64,000 bases of DNA from an uncultured Alphaproteobacteria bacterium (lineage in GTDB: Bacteria > Pseudomonadota > Alphaproteobacteria > HIMB59 > GCA-002718135). The notes under the pieces were generated by a model, which was given only the letters and a program-made list of their open reading frames with translations, was not told the DNA's origin and did no database searches. Shown here piece by piece: positions 17,212 through 37,957 of this stretch (position 1 is the first letter of the stretch; every line of letters begins with the position of its first letter). The stretch lies in assembly GCA_902595855.1 (NCBI GenBank), contig CACJRY010000001.1, positions 1-64,000 of the forward strand. Reading direction: 5' to 3'. Both the position numbers and the translations under genes were made by a program.

Positions 17212-20165
17212 CTTCACTAAGAAAAGAAAACTACGGTAAAATTAACAGAGAAAAAGTGCTGGGCTTTAGTTGGGATAATAAAGAATATTTTGGATATGAA
17301 GGTGACTCTCTAGCCTCTGCACTATTGGCAAATGATGTTAGAATAGTTGGTAGAAGTTTTAAATATCATCGTCCACGAGGAGTAATGTCTTGTGGCGTTG
17401 AAGAGTCAGGGGCTTTAGTAACTGTTGGATCTGGAAGTAGAAGAGATCCGAATGTTCGTGCAACAACACAAGAACTTTATTCTGGATTAAATGCCTCAGG
17501 TCAAAATGCATTTCCGAATGTTAATTTTGATTTTGGAGGTGTAAATAATTATTTAAGCCGTTTTTTTGCAGCTGGTTTTTATTATAAAACATTTATGGGT
17601 CTACCTCCATTTGAATGGGGTAAGGGAACTGGAATTTGGATGGTTTTTGAAAAAATTATTCGAAAAGCAGCCGGCATGGGTAAAGCTTCTAAGGAACCTG
17701 ATCCAGATAGCTATGAACATGCTAATGATTTTTGTGATGTGCTTGTTATTGGGTCTGGTCCTGCAGGTATTGCTGCAGCTCAAGAAATAGCTAATAATAA
17801 ATTAGATGTTATTTTAATTGAACAGGACTCTTTACTTGGAGGAAATAGTTTATCTCAAAAAGATTTTGATCCTTACCTTTTAAATACTCAACTAAAAAGC
17901 AGTGGTATTAGAGTTATGCCCAGAACAACAGCCTTTGGTATTTATGATAATACTGTTGTTGGAGCGTTGGAAAGAGTAACTGATCATTTGCCTACTCCTC
18001 ATAGTAGTTTGCCCCGCCAACGTTTTTGGACAATTAGAGCAAAACATATCATTGTAGCAAGTGGTGCTCTTGAAAGACATATTGCATTTAATAACAATGA
18101 TTTACCTGGAGCAATGACTGTAAACGCATCTAAACATTATTTAAATAGATATGGTGTTTTAACTGGAAATAATATTGTCATCTCAACAAATAATGACTCT
18201 GTATATCAAACAGCTAAAGAATTGCATGAGGCAGGCTCAAAAGTTACAATTTTAGACTCAAGAGACAATGTCAATCATGATTTATCAAAAGACATTGATC
18301 TTCATTTAAATACTCTGCCATTTAGTATTAATGGTAGAAAAAAAATTGACGGTATTGATGTTTGTAAAACAACAGATCTATCAAATAAAAATACAATTAT
18401 TTGTGATCAAGTTTTAATGTCAGGAGGCTGGTCACCAATTGTTAATCTTGTGTCTCACCGAGGTATTAAACCTACATGGAATCAAGAAAACTTATGTTTC
18501 ATTCCGGGACAAATTAAAGAGAATATTTCTGTTGTAGGATCGGCAAAAGGTATTTGGGATGAAAAGAATTGCATAGAGTCAGGCTTTGTTGGTGCTAATG
18601 AAGCAATGAATACTTTTGGTATGCACAAAAAAGAAATTTCTTTTCCATCAGTAGGGGGGTGGTCAAATCCGATAGAACCTTTATTTGAAGTTAAATCAAA
18701 TAAATTTCCATCAAAAAGTTTTGTCGACTTTCAACATGATGTAACTGCTGAGGATGTAAGGTTAGCACACAGAGAAGGTTTTATCTCTGTTGAGCATTTA
18801 AAAAGATACACCACTCTAGGAATGGCAAACGACCAAGGCAAAATGGGCAATATAATTGGTTTATCTCTTATGGCGGAACAACTAGATAAAACTATTCCAC
18901 AAGTTGGAACAACAGTTTTTCGACCACCCTATACACCAGTTCCAATAGGTGCTTTAACAGGAAGAAATGTTGGAAAGCATTTTAGGCCTTTAAGAGTAAC
19001 ACCAATGCATCAATGGAATATTGATCATGGAGCAAAAATGATTGAGGTTGGTCTTTATCAAAGACCTTGGTACTACCCTAAAAAAAATGAAACATTGAGT
19101 GATTCATATATTAGGGAGACAACAATTGTTAGAAAAACAGTTGGTATTTGTGATGTGACATCACTGGGTAAAATTGCTATTCAAGGTCCTGATGCAACAG
19201 AACTCGTAAATCGTATTTACACAAACCCCTTTGCAAAACTTCCAATTGGTAAAGCACGGTATGGAATTATGTTACGCGATGATGGTATTGTGATGGATGA
19301 TGGTACGTCATGGAGACTCGGTGAAAATGAATACTTTATGACTACATCAACCGCAGCTGCTGCAAAAGTGATGTCGTGGTTAGAAGAGTTACTCCAGACA
19401 AGATGGACAGATTTAAAAGTTAATGTGACAAGCGTCTCTGAACAATGGGCAGGTGCCGCAATCGCTGGTCCAAAATCTCGAGATGTTTTGAATGAATGTG
19501 TTTTTGATGCAAGTGAAATTACAAATGATAATTTACCTTTCATGGGAGTACTACAAACTAAACTCAAAGATGGCACACCATGTAGAGTTGTTAGAATAAG
19601 TTTTTCAGGAGAGTTAGCGTACGAGATGTATATTGAGTCTGATTATGCTCATGGAATGATGGACTTATTATGGGAAAGTGCTCAAAAATATGATGGTTGT
19701 TTATATGGTCTTGAAGCTTTAGGAGCTTTAAGGGTTGAAAAAGGACATGTAACTGCTGCTGAGCTTGATGGAAGAGTAACAATTGATGATGCTGGTTTGG
19801 GAAAGATGGCATCAACAAAAAAATCCTACATTGGAAGTGCTATGAGAAAAAGAGGAGTTCTAAGTGCGGATGATAGAGACATGCTAGTTGGTTTTTTCCC
19901 TATAAATGAAAAAGAAACTTTTAATGCTGGCACAATTGTTTGTGAAAAAAATAATATTAAAGGGCAGGGCGTGGGTCGTATAACGTCAGTTACTCATTCG
20001 CCAGAGTTAGGCCATTGGATTGGAATAGGGTTTGTTAAAGGAGGTCTTGAAAAGTGGAAAGATATAACACTGATAGGTGCAGATCCAGTAAGAAACAAAC
20101 AAATGGAAATAAAAGTTGTATCACCTCATATGATTGATCCAGAAGGTAAGAGAATGTATGCTTAA
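17208..20165 (+). CDS. soxA: Sarcosine oxidase alpha subunit
   Basis: A 985-aa alpha subunit of normal length. Residues about 1-110 form the N-terminal ferredoxin-like/redox domain (RSFKYHRPRGVMSCG). An FAD/NAD-binding domain begins with VLVIGSGPAGIAAAQE (about 176-191). The C-terminal approximately 390 residues are a GcvT-like tetrahydrofolate domain (GDDGIVMDDGT-type motif, then FSGELAYEMYIES and GLEALGALRVEKGH). The subunit oxidises the sarcosine methyl group and loads the C1 unit onto THF. It is encoded between the delta and gamma subunits with short overlaps on both sides. Confidence 0.94.
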   Translation: MTSLRKENYGKINREKVLGFSWDNKEYFGYEGDSLASALLANDVRIVGRSFKYHRPRGVMSCGVEESGALVTVGSGSRRDPNVRATTQELYSGLNASGQNAFPNVNFDFGGVNNYLSRFFAAGFYYKTFMGLPPFEWGKGTGIWMVFEKIIRKAAGMGKASKEPDPDSYEHANDFCDVLVIGSGPAGIAAAQEIANNKLDVILIEQDSLLGGNSLSQKDFDPYLLNTQLKSSGIRVMPRTTAFGIYDNTVVGALERVTDHLPTPHSSLPRQRFWTIRAKHIIVASGALERHIAFNNNDLPGAMTVNASKHYLNRYGVLTGNNIVISTNNDSVYQTAKELHEAGSKVTILDSRDNVNHDLSKDIDLHLNTLPFSINGRKKIDGIDVCKTTDLSNKNTIICDQVLMSGGWSPIVNLVSHRGIKPTWNQENLCFIPGQIKENISVVGSAKGIWDEKNCIESGFVGANEAMNTFGMHKKEISFPSVGGWSNPIEPLFEVKSNKFPSKSFVDFQHDVTAEDVRLAHREGFISVEHLKRYTTLGMANDQGKMGNIIGLSLMAEQLDKTIPQVGTTVFRPPYTPVPIGALTGRNVGKHFRPLRVTPMHQWNIDHGAKMIEVGLYQRPWYYPKKNETLSDSYIRETTIVRKTVGICDVTSLGKIAIQGPDATELVNRIYTNPFAKLPIGKARYGIMLRDDGIVMDDGTSWRLGENEYFMTTSTAAAAKVMSWLEELLQTRWTDLKVNVTSVSEQWAGAAIAGPKSRDVLNECVFDASEITNDNLPFMGVLQTKLKDGTPCRVVRISFSGELAYEMYIESDYAHGMMDLLWESAQKYDGCLYGLEALGALRVEKGHVTAAELDGRVTIDDAGLGKMASTKKSYIGSAMRKRGVLSADDRDMLVGFFPINEKETFNAGTIVCEKNNIKGQGVGRITSVTHSPELGHWIGIGFVKGGLEKWKDITLIGADPVRNKQMEIKVVSPHMIDPEGKRMYA

Positions 20166-33399: not shown

Positions 33400-34497
33400 A
33401 TGAATTCTGAGTCAGAAAAAAGCTTTGTTAAATTTGAAAAGATTGACAAAAGTTACGATGGTGAAGTGCTAGTAGTTAAAAATCTAAATTTAGATATCGC
33501 CAAGGGTGAGTTTGTAACAATGCTTGGCCCTTCTGGTTCTGGCAAAACTACCACACTTATGATGTTAGCAGGATTTGAGACTCCAACGAATGGAGAAATC
33601 TTTCTAGATGGAATGCCCATTAGTAAAATCCCACCATATGAGAGAGAAATTGGAATGGTCTTTCAAAATTATGCTCTATTCCCTCATATGACTGTGCAAG
33701 AAAATTTAGCATTTCCACTTGAAGTTAGAAAATTATCAAAAGGAGAGACTAAAGAAAAAGTTCAAAAAGCTCTTGATATGGTTGAGCTTGGTGACTTTGG
33801 TACTCGTTTTCCTGCGCAGTTATCTGGAGGTCAACAACAAAGAGTTGCTCTTGCAAGAGCCCTTGTTTTTGAACCAAGACTTGTTTTAATGGATGAGCCC
33901 CTTGGAGCATTAGACAAAAATTTAAGAGAACAGATGCAATATGAAATAAAACATATTCATGACAGAATAGGAATTACTGTCGTTTATGTAACACACGATC
34001 AAAGTGAAGCTCTAACGATGTCTAATAGAATAGCAGTTTTTAACGATGGAGTTGTTCAGCAATTATCAACTCCAGATATATTATATGAAAAACCAGAAAA
34101 TTCTTTTGTTGCGCAATTTATAGGTGAGAATAATAGAATGTCAGGAACAATTAAGAGTATGGAAAATAATTACTGTTCTGTAGAACTTGAAAATGGAGCA
34201 GGTACTGTAAAAGCTCTTAAAGTTAATGTAGGTGGTGTGGGAGAGAAAACTCAACTCTCCGTTAGACCTGAAAGAGTATCATTGGGCTCAGATGGAAATG
34301 GGGAAAATGTATTTACAGGAAAAGTTGAAGAGCTAATATATTTAGGTGATCATATCAGGGTTAGATTAGATGTATGTGGAAATAACGAGTTTATTGTTAA
34401 AGTACCAAATGAAGGATCTTTTAACTATAATGAAGGAGATTCTATAAAACTTAACTGGAATCCTGATGATATAAGGGCGTTAGATCCAGTAAATTAA
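33400..34497 (+). CDS. potA: Spermidine/putrescine-type ABC transporter ATP-binding protein
   Basis: A 365-aa ATPase of the PotA class. Walker A is GPSGSGKTT, Q-loop FQNYALFPHM, signature LSGGQQQRVALAR, Walker B LVLMDEPLGALD, with His in YVTHDQSEA and a C-terminal TOBE domain (about 280-360). It heads a plus-strand A-D-B-C transporter set. The class takes up polyamines or related cations such as 4-aminobutyrate or quaternary amines; substrate specificity lies in the binding protein. The symbol denotes family, not a proven substrate. Confidence 0.85.
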   Translation: MNSESEKSFVKFEKIDKSYDGEVLVVKNLNLDIAKGEFVTMLGPSGSGKTTTLMMLAGFETPTNGEIFLDGMPISKIPPYEREIGMVFQNYALFPHMTVQENLAFPLEVRKLSKGETKEKVQKALDMVELGDFGTRFPAQLSGGQQQRVALARALVFEPRLVLMDEPLGALDKNLREQMQYEIKHIHDRIGITVVYVTHDQSEALTMSNRIAVFNDGVVQQLSTPDILYEKPENSFVAQFIGENNRMSGTIKSMENNYCSVELENGAGTVKALKVNVGGVGEKTQLSVRPERVSLGSDGNGENVFTGKVEELIYLGDHIRVRLDVCGNNEFIVKVPNEGSFNYNEGDSIKLNWNPDDIRALDPVN

Positions 34498-34614: not shown

Positions 34615-35718
34615 ATGTCAAAATTAATTAAAGCATTCTTGTTTGCTTCACTTTTAGTGTCATCTTTTGCTGTTAAAGCAGTAACGGTTGCTTCATGGGG
34701 TGGTGCTTACACAGAAAGTCAACAAAAAGCTTATGCTGATACTTATTCAGATCCAAGTTCAATTCAATTTGAGAACTATAACGGTGGTCTTGGTGAAGTA
34801 AGAGCGCAAGTTGAAAGTGGTAATGTAACTTGGGACTTAGTAGACGTTCTCCCAAGTGATGCAATCACAGGTTGTGATGAAGGTTTGTTTGAAGATATTA
34901 CTTCTGAAATTGCAGAATTATCAACTCCAGGTCCTGATGGCGAGTCAATGTTAGAGGATATGGAAAACAACGGTTTAGAGTACCACTCTGGTTGGGATTG
35001 TTGTGTTCCACAAATTTTCTGGACATACGTAGTTTTCTATGACCCAGATGCTTTCCCTGGTGATAAACCAAGCAGCATGGCAGATTTTTTTGACGTGGAA
35101 AAATTTCCTGGCAAAAGAGGTATCCATACTTGGGCAACAGGTATAATTGAAAAAGCTATGGTTGCTGATGGTGTTAAACCAACTGCAGTTCCAACAGTTC
35201 TTGCTAACCAAACTGGTGCGCTTGATAGAGCTTTTGCTAAATTAGATACTATTAAAGATCATGTTGTTTTCTGGTCTTCAGGATCTAAACCACTAGAATT
35301 AGTAAAAAGTGGTGAAGTTGTAATGGCTATTGCATACAATGGTCGTGTTGGTGCAGCTAACCTAGCAGAGGGTGAAAACTTTGAATATATTTGGGAAGGT
35401 CAAGTGTTAGACCAAGAATACTTATGTTTAACTACTGGTGCTCCTAACAGAGATGCAGCTATTGATTTCATGATGCATGCATCAACTCCTGAAGCACAAG
35501 CTGAACAAGCTAAATATATTACTTATGGACCTATGAGAGCTTCTGGTATTCCAATCATTCAAAACAATGAGCCTTGGGGACCAGGTGGCGTAGATATTAT
35601 GCCTCATATGCCTAATACACCTGAGCGTTTAAAAGTTTCAATCGTAAGTGATCCACAATGGTGGTCTGACTACGGTGCTGAAATTAATGAGCGTTATGCA
35701 GCGTGGATGGGTAACTAA
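34615..35718 (+). CDS. potD: Periplasmic polyamine-type substrate-binding protein
   Basis: A 367-aa binding protein of the PotD/PotF family. The signal peptide (IKAFLFASLLVSSFAVKA) precedes a mature chain starting VTVASWGGAYTESQ, the usual first strand of this family. Acidic and aromatic ligand-site candidates are in WDLVDVLPSD and YNGRVGAANL. Unlike true PotD it has a pair of Cys in the WDCCVPQ stretch. GGAGGAACAT before the ATG is a strong ribosome binding site. A hairpin follows the gene. The ligand is likely a polyamine, GABA-like or amine compound; neighbouring amine-oxidising flavoprotein and aldehyde dehydrogenase fit that. Confidence 0.85.
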   Translation: MSKLIKAFLFASLLVSSFAVKAVTVASWGGAYTESQQKAYADTYSDPSSIQFENYNGGLGEVRAQVESGNVTWDLVDVLPSDAITGCDEGLFEDITSEIAELSTPGPDGESMLEDMENNGLEYHSGWDCCVPQIFWTYVVFYDPDAFPGDKPSSMADFFDVEKFPGKRGIHTWATGIIEKAMVADGVKPTAVPTVLANQTGALDRAFAKLDTIKDHVVFWSSGSKPLELVKSGEVVMAIAYNGRVGAANLAEGENFEYIWEGQVLDQEYLCLTTGAPNRDAAIDFMMHASTPEAQAEQAKYITYGPMRASGIPIIQNNEPWGPGGVDIMPHMPNTPERLKVSIVSDPQWWSDYGAEINERYAAWMGN

Positions 35719-35750
35719 GCTTGATTAAGTTACAATATTAATTTAACTAA

Positions 35751-35777
35751 AAGGCGAGATTTATTCTCGCCTTTTTT
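35751..35777 (+). terminator. Hairpin between binding-protein and permease genes
   Basis: A 9-bp stem (AAGGCGAGA / TCTCGCCTT) with loop TTTAT and a following T-run. It ends only 15 bases before the permease start. It likely gives partial termination or 3'-end protection, keeping the binding protein more abundant than the permeases. Confidence 0.85.
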
Positions 35778-35792
35778 AATTGGGAGGTTATT

Positions 35793-37058
35793 ATTTCTAC
35801 TACACAGCTACTTACAACTGATGGTATTCCACTTAAGCAAAGTTTAAAAAAAGCTGAAAGAAAGAATAAAATAAGAGCTTTCTTTTTAGTATTTCCTTTA
35901 CTGCTTTTTATTTTTGTTACCTTCGTAATGCCAATTGGAGATATGCTATTAAGAAGTGTAGATGACAGTCAAATCAATACGGTCTTTCCAAGAACTTTTG
36001 AAGAATACAACAAATGGAACAGAGATGTAGATGAGCTTCCACCTGAAGAGGTATACCGAACTCTTTTTGAAGAACTTGCAACTGGAGAGAAAATTCAAAT
36101 AGGAAGAGCCTTGACTAGAATGAATTATTCTAAATCAGGTTGGAAAAGTTTGATAAAAAAAACTTCTAGAGAAATAAAAAAGATGACAAAAAAAGGCATT
36201 GTGCCTGAGTCTTATAAAGAGACCCTTATTGAGATAAACAAAGATTGGGGTGATCCAACTTTTTGGTACTCAATGGCTCAAATGGTGAATAAACAGACTC
36301 CAATTTATTATTGGAATGCAATTGATAGGACATATGATCAAAATCAAAAAGTCATCATGCAAGATGAGAAAAGAAGAATTTATGTTCAAACATGGTTTAA
36401 GACTTTAAAAGTAAGTGTCTATGTAACTTTCTTTTGTTTAATATTAGGATTTCCAGTAGCTCACTTATTAGCTAACTTACCTTTACGTTACAGCAATCTA
36501 TTAATGATTTTTGTTCTCCTTCCATTTTGGACATCTTTGCTTGTTCGGACAACAGCATGGATTGTTATGCTTCAACAAAAAGGAGTTATCAATGGTGTGT
36601 TGGTATGGCTCGGTATATTGAGTGATGATGGTAGACTTCAAATGGTTTATAATGAAACAGGAACTTTAATTGCAATGACTCAAATACTATTACCTTTTAT
36701 GATTTTACCACTTTATAGTGTGATGAAGGTAATACCGAAAAGTCATATGAGAGCTGCGCAAAATTTAGGTGCAAAACCAGCACTTGCTTTTTGGAAAGTA
36801 TATTTGCCTCAAACTATACCAGGTATGAGCGCGGGCGGCTTATTAGTTTTTGTATTAGCAATTGGATATTTTATAACACCTGAATTAGTGGGTGGAAAAG
36901 ATGGTAAATTAATTGGAAGCTGGATAGCTTTTCATCTTAAAACCACATTGAACTGGGGTTTATGTGCAGCTTTAGGAGCTATACTACTTGCAGTCATGTT
37001 AGTTTTTTACTGGCTTTATAATAAAATTGTTGGAATAGATAATATTAAGTTAGGATAG
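35793..37058 (+). CDS. potB: Polyamine-type ABC transporter permease 1, probable ATT start
   Basis: A permease of about 421 aa of the PotB class. The track starts at an internal ATG (35928), but the reading frame is open upstream and codes for a conserved-looking N-terminus (STTQLLTTDGIPLKQSLKKA) and the first membrane segment (FFLVFPLLLFIFVTFVMP). There is no ATG, GTG or TTG in that part. GGGAGG at 35782-35787 stands 5 bases before an ATT at 35793, which is the best start. A long periplasmic insertion (about 50-150) precedes the transport domain, whose coupling loop is AAQNLGAKPALAFWKVYLP. Two bases separate it from potC. Confidence 0.82.
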   Translation: MSTTQLLTTDGIPLKQSLKKAERKNKIRAFFLVFPLLLFIFVTFVMPIGDMLLRSVDDSQINTVFPRTFEEYNKWNRDVDELPPEEVYRTLFEELATGEKIQIGRALTRMNYSKSGWKSLIKKTSREIKKMTKKGIVPESYKETLIEINKDWGDPTFWYSMAQMVNKQTPIYYWNAIDRTYDQNQKVIMQDEKRRIYVQTWFKTLKVSVYVTFFCLILGFPVAHLLANLPLRYSNLLMIFVLLPFWTSLLVRTTAWIVMLQQKGVINGVLVWLGILSDDGRLQMVYNETGTLIAMTQILLPFMILPLYSVMKVIPKSHMRAAQNLGAKPALAFWKVYLPQTIPGMSAGGLLVFVLAIGYFITPELVGGKDGKLIGSWIAFHLKTTLNWGLCAALGAILLAVMLVFYWLYNKIVGIDNIKLG

Positions 37059-37060
37059 TT

Positions 37061-37957
37061 ATGGCATTACCTAGTTACGCATCACCTGTTCAGAAAACCT
37101 ATTACTACCTCTACTTGTTCTTTTGTGGTGTTGTATTCTTTTTTTTAGTTGCTCCATTAATAGCTATAGTGCCTATATCATTTAGTGTTTCACCTTTTAT
37201 GGTTTTTACTGATGGGATGCTGGCATGGCCTCCAGATCCTGAAGCTTGGTCTTTAAGATGGTATAAAAATATGATTGGTGATTGTAGTGCAGATGTAGTT
37301 TCTTCTACAGTCCCTTGTTCAAACAAATGGATGATAGGCACTCTTAACAGTTTCTTCATTGGTATTGTAGCTACAGTTATTGCTACTTCTCTTGGAACAT
37401 TAGCTGCATTGGGATTAAGTCGACCTCATATGCCTTTCAAAGGAATTATAATGGCAATTCTAATCTCACCAATGATTGTTCCTTTGATTATAACAGCTGC
37501 AGGCATGTTCTTTTTTTATGCTAGAATAAATTTAGTTTATACTTTCACAGGAGTAATTTTAGCCCATGTAGCTCTAGCTACACCATTTGTAGTAATCACA
37601 GTTACTGCAACTTTGGTTGGGTTTGATATGAATATGGTTAAAGCTGCTCAAAGTTTGGGTGCAAGACCTGTTAAAACTTTTTTTAGAGTAATTATGCCAT
37701 TAATTTTACCGGGTATAATTTCTGGAGCGTTATTTGCTTTTATTACTTCTTTTGATGAAGTTGTAATTGTTATGTTTATGGCAAGCTTAGATCAACTTAC
37801 AATTCCTAAGCAAATGTGGGCTGGAATAAGACAGGAAATTAGCCCTGTAATTTTATGTATGGCAACGTGTTTGGTAGCACTTTCAATTTTCTTGTTAACT
37901 ACAGTTGAATTATTAAGAAGACGATCAGAGCGATTACGCGGCATTAAACCAAGATAG
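37061..37957 (+). CDS. potC: Polyamine-type ABC transporter permease 2
   Basis: A 298-aa inner-membrane permease of the PotC class with about six transmembrane segments; the coupling loop is AAQSLGARPVKTFFRVIMP near residue 200. A short periplasmic insertion with two Cys (GDCSADVVSSTVPC) lies between the first two segments and may form a disulfide. Last transporter gene of the set; 6 bases later the flavoprotein gene begins, so import and first oxidation step are probably one operon. Confidence 0.87.
   Translation: MALPSYASPVQKTYYYLYLFFCGVVFFFLVAPLIAIVPISFSVSPFMVFTDGMLAWPPDPEAWSLRWYKNMIGDCSADVVSSTVPCSNKWMIGTLNSFFIGIVATVIATSLGTLAALGLSRPHMPFKGIIMAILISPMIVPLIITAAGMFFFYARINLVYTFTGVILAHVALATPFVVITVTATLVGFDMNMVKAAQSLGARPVKTFFRVIMPLILPGIISGALFAFITSFDEVVIVMFMASLDQLTIPKQMWAGIRQEISPVILCMATCLVALSIFLLTTVELLRRRSERLRGIKPR

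Follow-up and report, generated by a model that had tools for sequence, protein, structure and literature searches.

Organization of the locus

The window, that is, the whole stretch of 64,000 nucleotides analyzed here (contig CACJRY010000001.1, positions 1 to 64,000 of the forward strand), comes from an uncultured member of family GCA-002718135, order HIMB59, and carries a pot-like transport operon with the following features:

33400–34497, + strand: PotA-like ATPase gene with an ATG start, above the cut-off of TIGR01187 (potA)
34615–35718, + strand: PotD/PotF-like periplasmic binding protein gene (SBP_bac_8) with an ATG start and GGAGG 5 nt before it
35750–35774, + strand: intercistronic hairpin AAAGGCGAGA-TTTAT-TCTCGCCTTT with conserved pairing
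35772–35777, + strand: terminator-like T-run partly overlapping the 3' arm of the hairpin, its T positions invariant in the alignment
35782–35787, + strand: Shine-Dalgarno (SD) sequence GGGAGG, its GGAGG core present in all 71 unique relatives
35793–35795, + strand: very probable permease start codon ATT, conserved across orthologous loci
35793–37058, + strand: PotB/PotH-like permease gene (BPD_transp_1), 421 aa counted from ATT
35877–35948, + strand: hydrophobic segment, transmembrane (TM) helix 1, most of which precedes the in-frame ATG at 35928
37061–37957, + strand: PotC/PotI-like second permease gene with an ATG start

The operon runs from the potA-like ATPase through the binding protein, the PotB/PotH-like permease and the PotC-like permease to an FAD oxidoreductase, and an aldehyde dehydrogenase gene lies beside it on the opposite strand. 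In profile searches the permease scored 50.7 bits against PF00528 (BPD_transp_1; cut-off 26.4), and its best PDB match was PotB (8y5f_B), while the NCBIfam equivalog cut-offs were missed for both PotB (166 vs 348 bits) and PotH (151 vs 489 bits). By these scores the permease is a relative of PotB/PotH and no equivalog; the operon is most naturally read as one for putrescine/spermidine uptake, a putative assignment. Pot transporters have been reported in the AEGEAN-169/HIMB59 clade (Getz et al.), the HIMB59 order being the AEGEAN-169 clade once named SAR11 subclade V (PMC10308909). The genome of the window (G000) shares its genus code with AG-891-K05 (G260), the reference of one genomospecies within family GCA002718135, order HIMB59 (PMC10734472).

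The terminator-like hairpin that the earlier note had placed before the permease gene was confirmed; it lies downstream of the stop of the binding-protein gene (35718) and upstream of the permease SD. It has 9 consensus pairs, at 4 of which two-sided changes keep the pairing (e.g., C-G to U-A). With its G+C-rich stem, its conserved pairing and the T-run behind it, the element bears the marks of an intrinsic terminator or intercistronic hairpin, and termination is predicted at this site.

Conservation of the ATT codon and its Shine-Dalgarno sequence

The permease frame is open from 35793 to a TAG ending at 37058, its first in-frame ATG lies at 35928 (M46 counted from ATT), and, as the earlier note had stated, the window contains no ATG, GTG or TTG in this frame from the preceding stop up to 35928. 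We compared 71 unique orthologous loci (gene plus 60 nt) of the same family with 80–98% amino acid identity, which are independent records of uncultured marine Alphaproteobacteria (SAGs, Tara MarineAlpha5 MAGs and an SI047 MAG). The permease began with ATT in 69 of the 71 loci and with ATC in the other two (L091 and L100), and ATG, GTG, TTG or ATA occupied this position in 0/71; the comparison of orthologous start codons on which the earlier note had staked its reading therefore yielded no family orthologue with ATG. In the alignment, the start column held 68 ATT, 2 ATC and no ATA, with one row gapped, whereas ATA was present in at least four sequences in each of the 22 other isoleucine columns (≥95% Ile), which sets the start column apart from ordinary isoleucine codon use. 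Synonymous sites were saturated between the gene pairs compared (median pS 0.67) while the start codon stayed unchanged, indicating that ATT/ATC has persisted over a long period in which one-step changes to ATG were possible; no such ATT-to-ATG change occurred among 40 representatives with less than 95% nucleotide identity.

The GGGAGG that had been noted 5 nt before ATT stands at 35782–35787, and its GGAGG bases are invariant across the relatives, with a distance from GGAGG to ATT/ATC of 5 nt in 69/71 loci and 4 nt in 2/71. The anti-SD CCTCC is present and intact. Of 360 conserved ATG starts in G000, only 8 have GGAGG before them and 266 lack even an SD-like trimer, which places the permease SD among the strongest of the genome. 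The binding-protein gene has GGAGG and ATG in 67/67 loci, with the SD reading GGAGA in L091; binding protein and permease thus share the same GGAGG at nearly equal spacing, but start with ATG and ATT, respectively, and are a natural matched pair differing in the start codon.

Probable translation from ATT and alternative starts

Counted from ATT, the permease sequence begins ISTTQLLTTDGIPLKQSLKKAERKNKIRAFFLVFPLLLFIFVTFVMPIGDM, and the N-terminal peptides predicted from this start in the family include (M)STTQLLTTDGIPLK, (M)STAELLTTDGIPLK and (M)STSALLTTDGIPLK. Codons 2–45 are as constrained as the remainder of the gene (pN/pS 0.14 vs 0.15) and are therefore translated. The first membrane helix is encoded for the most part upstream of 35928, as had been proposed, and this hydrophobic segment aligns weakly with TM1 of the PotB of known structure. 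In L095 and L115 (G033), one additional T in the N-terminal membrane helix shifts the permease frame, either as a real frameshift or as a single-cell assembly error.

Among the alternatives, the best-surviving one places the start at codon −4, 12 nt upstream, where a TTG or ATG overlaps the SD ([A/T]TG GAG Gnn nnn ATT), takes ATT as an internal isoleucine codon, and has genomes like that of the window lose the upstream start secondarily. An in-frame TTG does stand at codon −4 in 49/71 unique relatives and an in-frame ATG in 2/71, the latter being the two ATC loci; this TTG is formed by the T-run together with GGAGG. In the window, however, codon −4 is TGG, and 19/71 unique loci, the window included, have no canonical in-frame start upstream. 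Six of the 71 relatives even have a stop codon exactly there that touches the SD (e.g., TAG GAG GAT TGT ATT), which supports ATT, and the two relatives with a spacer shorter by 1 nt would be frameshifted if translation began there. Codon −1 encodes 10 different residues and is thus unconstrained, while the invariant SD bases and the avoidance of ATA in the ATT column likewise speak against codon −4; for Streptomyces sigR, experiments ruled out a comparable false start that lay within the SD (PMC5472188). As a general start, codon −4 was rejected, being neither conserved nor separate from the SD, and we regard this explanation as improbable, with an upstream start in the 49 TTG and 2 ATG relatives still formally conceivable.

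A start at ATG 35928, with the upstream frame untranslated or a relic, is what an ORF caller would choose, this being the first ATG in frame; it is very hard to reconcile with the purifying selection on codons 2–45, would delete the cytoplasmic N-terminus and most of TM helix 1, and was rejected on the coding constraint and on the absence of that ATG from several relatives. The earlier note had called this codon the annotated ATG; first in frame it is, but it is a mechanical ORF start with no annotation behind it. Although the assembly of the window is fragmented (38 contigs, 84% complete), a sequencing or assembly error turning ATG into ATT has a negligible chance and is refuted by the recurrence of the codon in dozens of single cells and MAGs that were sequenced independently and differ by up to ~20% at the protein level. 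The conserved codon and SD, the constrained N-terminus with TM helix 1 and the relatives with a stop directly before the SD together make ATT at 35793 very probably the real permease start, and we infer from them that initiation takes place at the AUU itself.

Origin of the ATT start

In a permease tree built without the N-terminal residues, the ATT/ATC rows formed one clade (SH-aLRT 100) requiring one change, and by this tree the trait arose once. Outgroup permeases have canonical starts, mostly ATG; it is ATG in the nearest sister rows, L097 and L098 of the Pelagibacteraceae, and also in the group after them, which comprises L129 and L110–L112. L110–L112 and L129 lack an SD between the hairpin and ATG, whereas in the ATT clade GGAGG stands between hairpin and ATT. 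L110, L111 and L112 (G038, G036 and G008) bear the same genus code as the window's genome, and a permease only 52% identical replaces the ATT version in them, probably a horizontally exchanged version or the result of an operon exchange.

Proposed role in subunit dosage

Importers of the ABC kind usually need their binding protein in large excess over the permease, and the same-SD pair bears on dosage for this reason. In the mechanism that we propose, the strong SD (GGAGG, with an intact anti-SD) would place the ribosome at the permease AUU at 35793, where the normal fMet-tRNA would initiate on the mismatched codon, less efficiently because IF3 discriminates against AUU. The hairpin would end or protect most binding-protein transcripts, and AUU and hairpin together would keep the permease in the membrane far scarcer than the abundant binding protein, whose identical SD is followed by ATG. 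The lineage encodes an IF3 that is canonical and full-length by sequence, and with the anti-SD intact, discrimination by this factor against AUU, together with a low initiation rate and IF3 sensitivity at the permease, would be expected. An altered IF3 was considered and not seen. Among the parts of G000 and G260 searched with aragorn, only CAT tRNAs appeared as initiator/Met candidates, with no special AUU-reading initiator tRNA. In the anticodon stem of the G260 initiator tRNA (L269, reverse strand, ~19599–19675, C2), where three G-C pairs are usual, the outermost pair is A-U, a variant that also occurs in other alphaproteobacteria.

Alternatively, AUU may be authentic and serve no dosage purpose, the start codon being nearly irrelevant beside a strong SD and AUU simply tolerated; AUU with GGAGG might then equal the ATG without SD of the divergent same-genus homologue (L110–L112). 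Against this stand the rarity of GGAGG elsewhere in the genome and the missing ATT-to-ATG change among the 40 representatives despite saturated synonymous sites, an absence that points to selection against ATG, and we consider mere tolerance possible but rather doubtful. A limitation of the permease relative to the binding protein by AUU fits all the evidence and is, in our judgment, the somewhat favored explanation. In this small-genome ocean family, evolution appears to have kept the permease start as ATT, probably to hold the membrane subunit at a fraction of the binding-protein level, and the same-SD pair, present in all relatives examined, is a natural experiment well suited to testing whether ABC importers can set dosage through the start codon.

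Other ATT starts in the genome

To place the permease in its genomic context, ~1.37 Mb of G000 was surveyed against 1.0 Mb of G260, giving 676 shared genes, of which three (the permease, rsfS and surf1) had no usable ATG, GTG or TTG; a widespread use of AUU was therefore rejected, and these 676 genes yielded no other start at ATC, ATA or CTG behind an SD. The two additional genes are:

L157:13964–14314 (G000 C3), − strand: rsfS (ribosome silencing factor), ATT start
L217:1204–1875 (G000 C3:121204–121875), + strand: surf1, ATT start

Two other candidates were dismissed, namely prfB, which appeared only through its known frameshift, and infC, which appears to start with TTG in this lineage. The rsfS start overlaps or abuts the end of nadD and reads ATT in 29/29 unique family loci (L276–L305), with GAGG a few nt before it. 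In surf1, ATT directly follows the cox3 stop (GCATAA ATT) in 33/33 family loci (L306–L335 and L346–L348), and termination-reinitiation at AUU is possible; the codon-invariance argument is weaker for this gene because one other isoleucine column is also single-codon. In the sister family, surf1 mostly starts with ATG and rsfS is mixed. One surf1 frame of that family (L358, G096) has no ATG, GTG or TTG and begins ATA ATA CTT after a stop, possibly a further non-canonical start.

All three ATT genes lie downstream in operons, and it is plausible that the cell requires less of their products than of the one encoded by the preceding gene, a pattern and no proof. It is also conceivable, if unlikely, that AUU is a standing regulatory start through which translation of the three genes responds jointly to IF3 or the ribosome state; if true, growth rate would be linked to polyamine uptake, ribosome hibernation and oxidase assembly through the identity of the start codon alone. 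Gene callers limited to ATG, GTG and TTG are blind to AUU starts, and the permease, rsfS and surf1 are liable to truncation or mis-annotation in every genome of this abundant ocean lineage.

Comparison with known non-canonical starts

Documented cases of a conserved AUU start in bacteria are very few, and the permease is, to our knowledge, the first in a transporter; within the literature searched, AUU starts were not described for SAR11 or HIMB59, which is no proof of absence. In E. coli, infC, encoding IF3, is described as having an IF3-sensitive AUU start (Butler et al. 1987, as cited in PMC1780047), which is kept by selection, as the permease start appears to be, but infC regulates itself, whereas the present gene encodes an ABC permease. 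Expression of E. coli pcnB is likewise described as limited by AUU (Binns and Masters 2002, as cited in PMC1780047 and PMC13009471), in a different gene and lineage and with no binding-protein/permease pair. The Staphylococcus starts of cvfC1 (AUU) and ccpN (AUA), demonstrated by Ribo-Ret and reporters, reach, in poor medium, ~10% of the expression obtained with AUG (PMC13009471); they are conserved and have an extended SD, as in the permease, but belong to a regulator/small protein and to no transporter. A parallel in conservation is Streptomyces sigR, with GTC in 32/34 and GTT in 2/34 cases (cf. 69 ATT and 2 ATC here), where the annotated start lay inside the SD and GTC sets the ratio to the operon partner (PMC5472188). 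There too a conserved non-canonical codon stands behind a strong SD, but the codon is GTC, the pair is sigma/anti-sigma and the start is experimentally proven. The combination of a strong SD and a weak start codon in the permease matches the proven cases cvfC1, ccpN and sigR, and three marks of an authentic AUU gene are found in it, namely no canonical start at a conserved N-terminus, a conserved codon and a strong, properly spaced SD. Collectively, the permease belongs with the known AUU and near-cognate starts, and its novelty lies in the kind of gene, in the lineage, in how deeply the start is conserved and in the same-SD pair within one operon.
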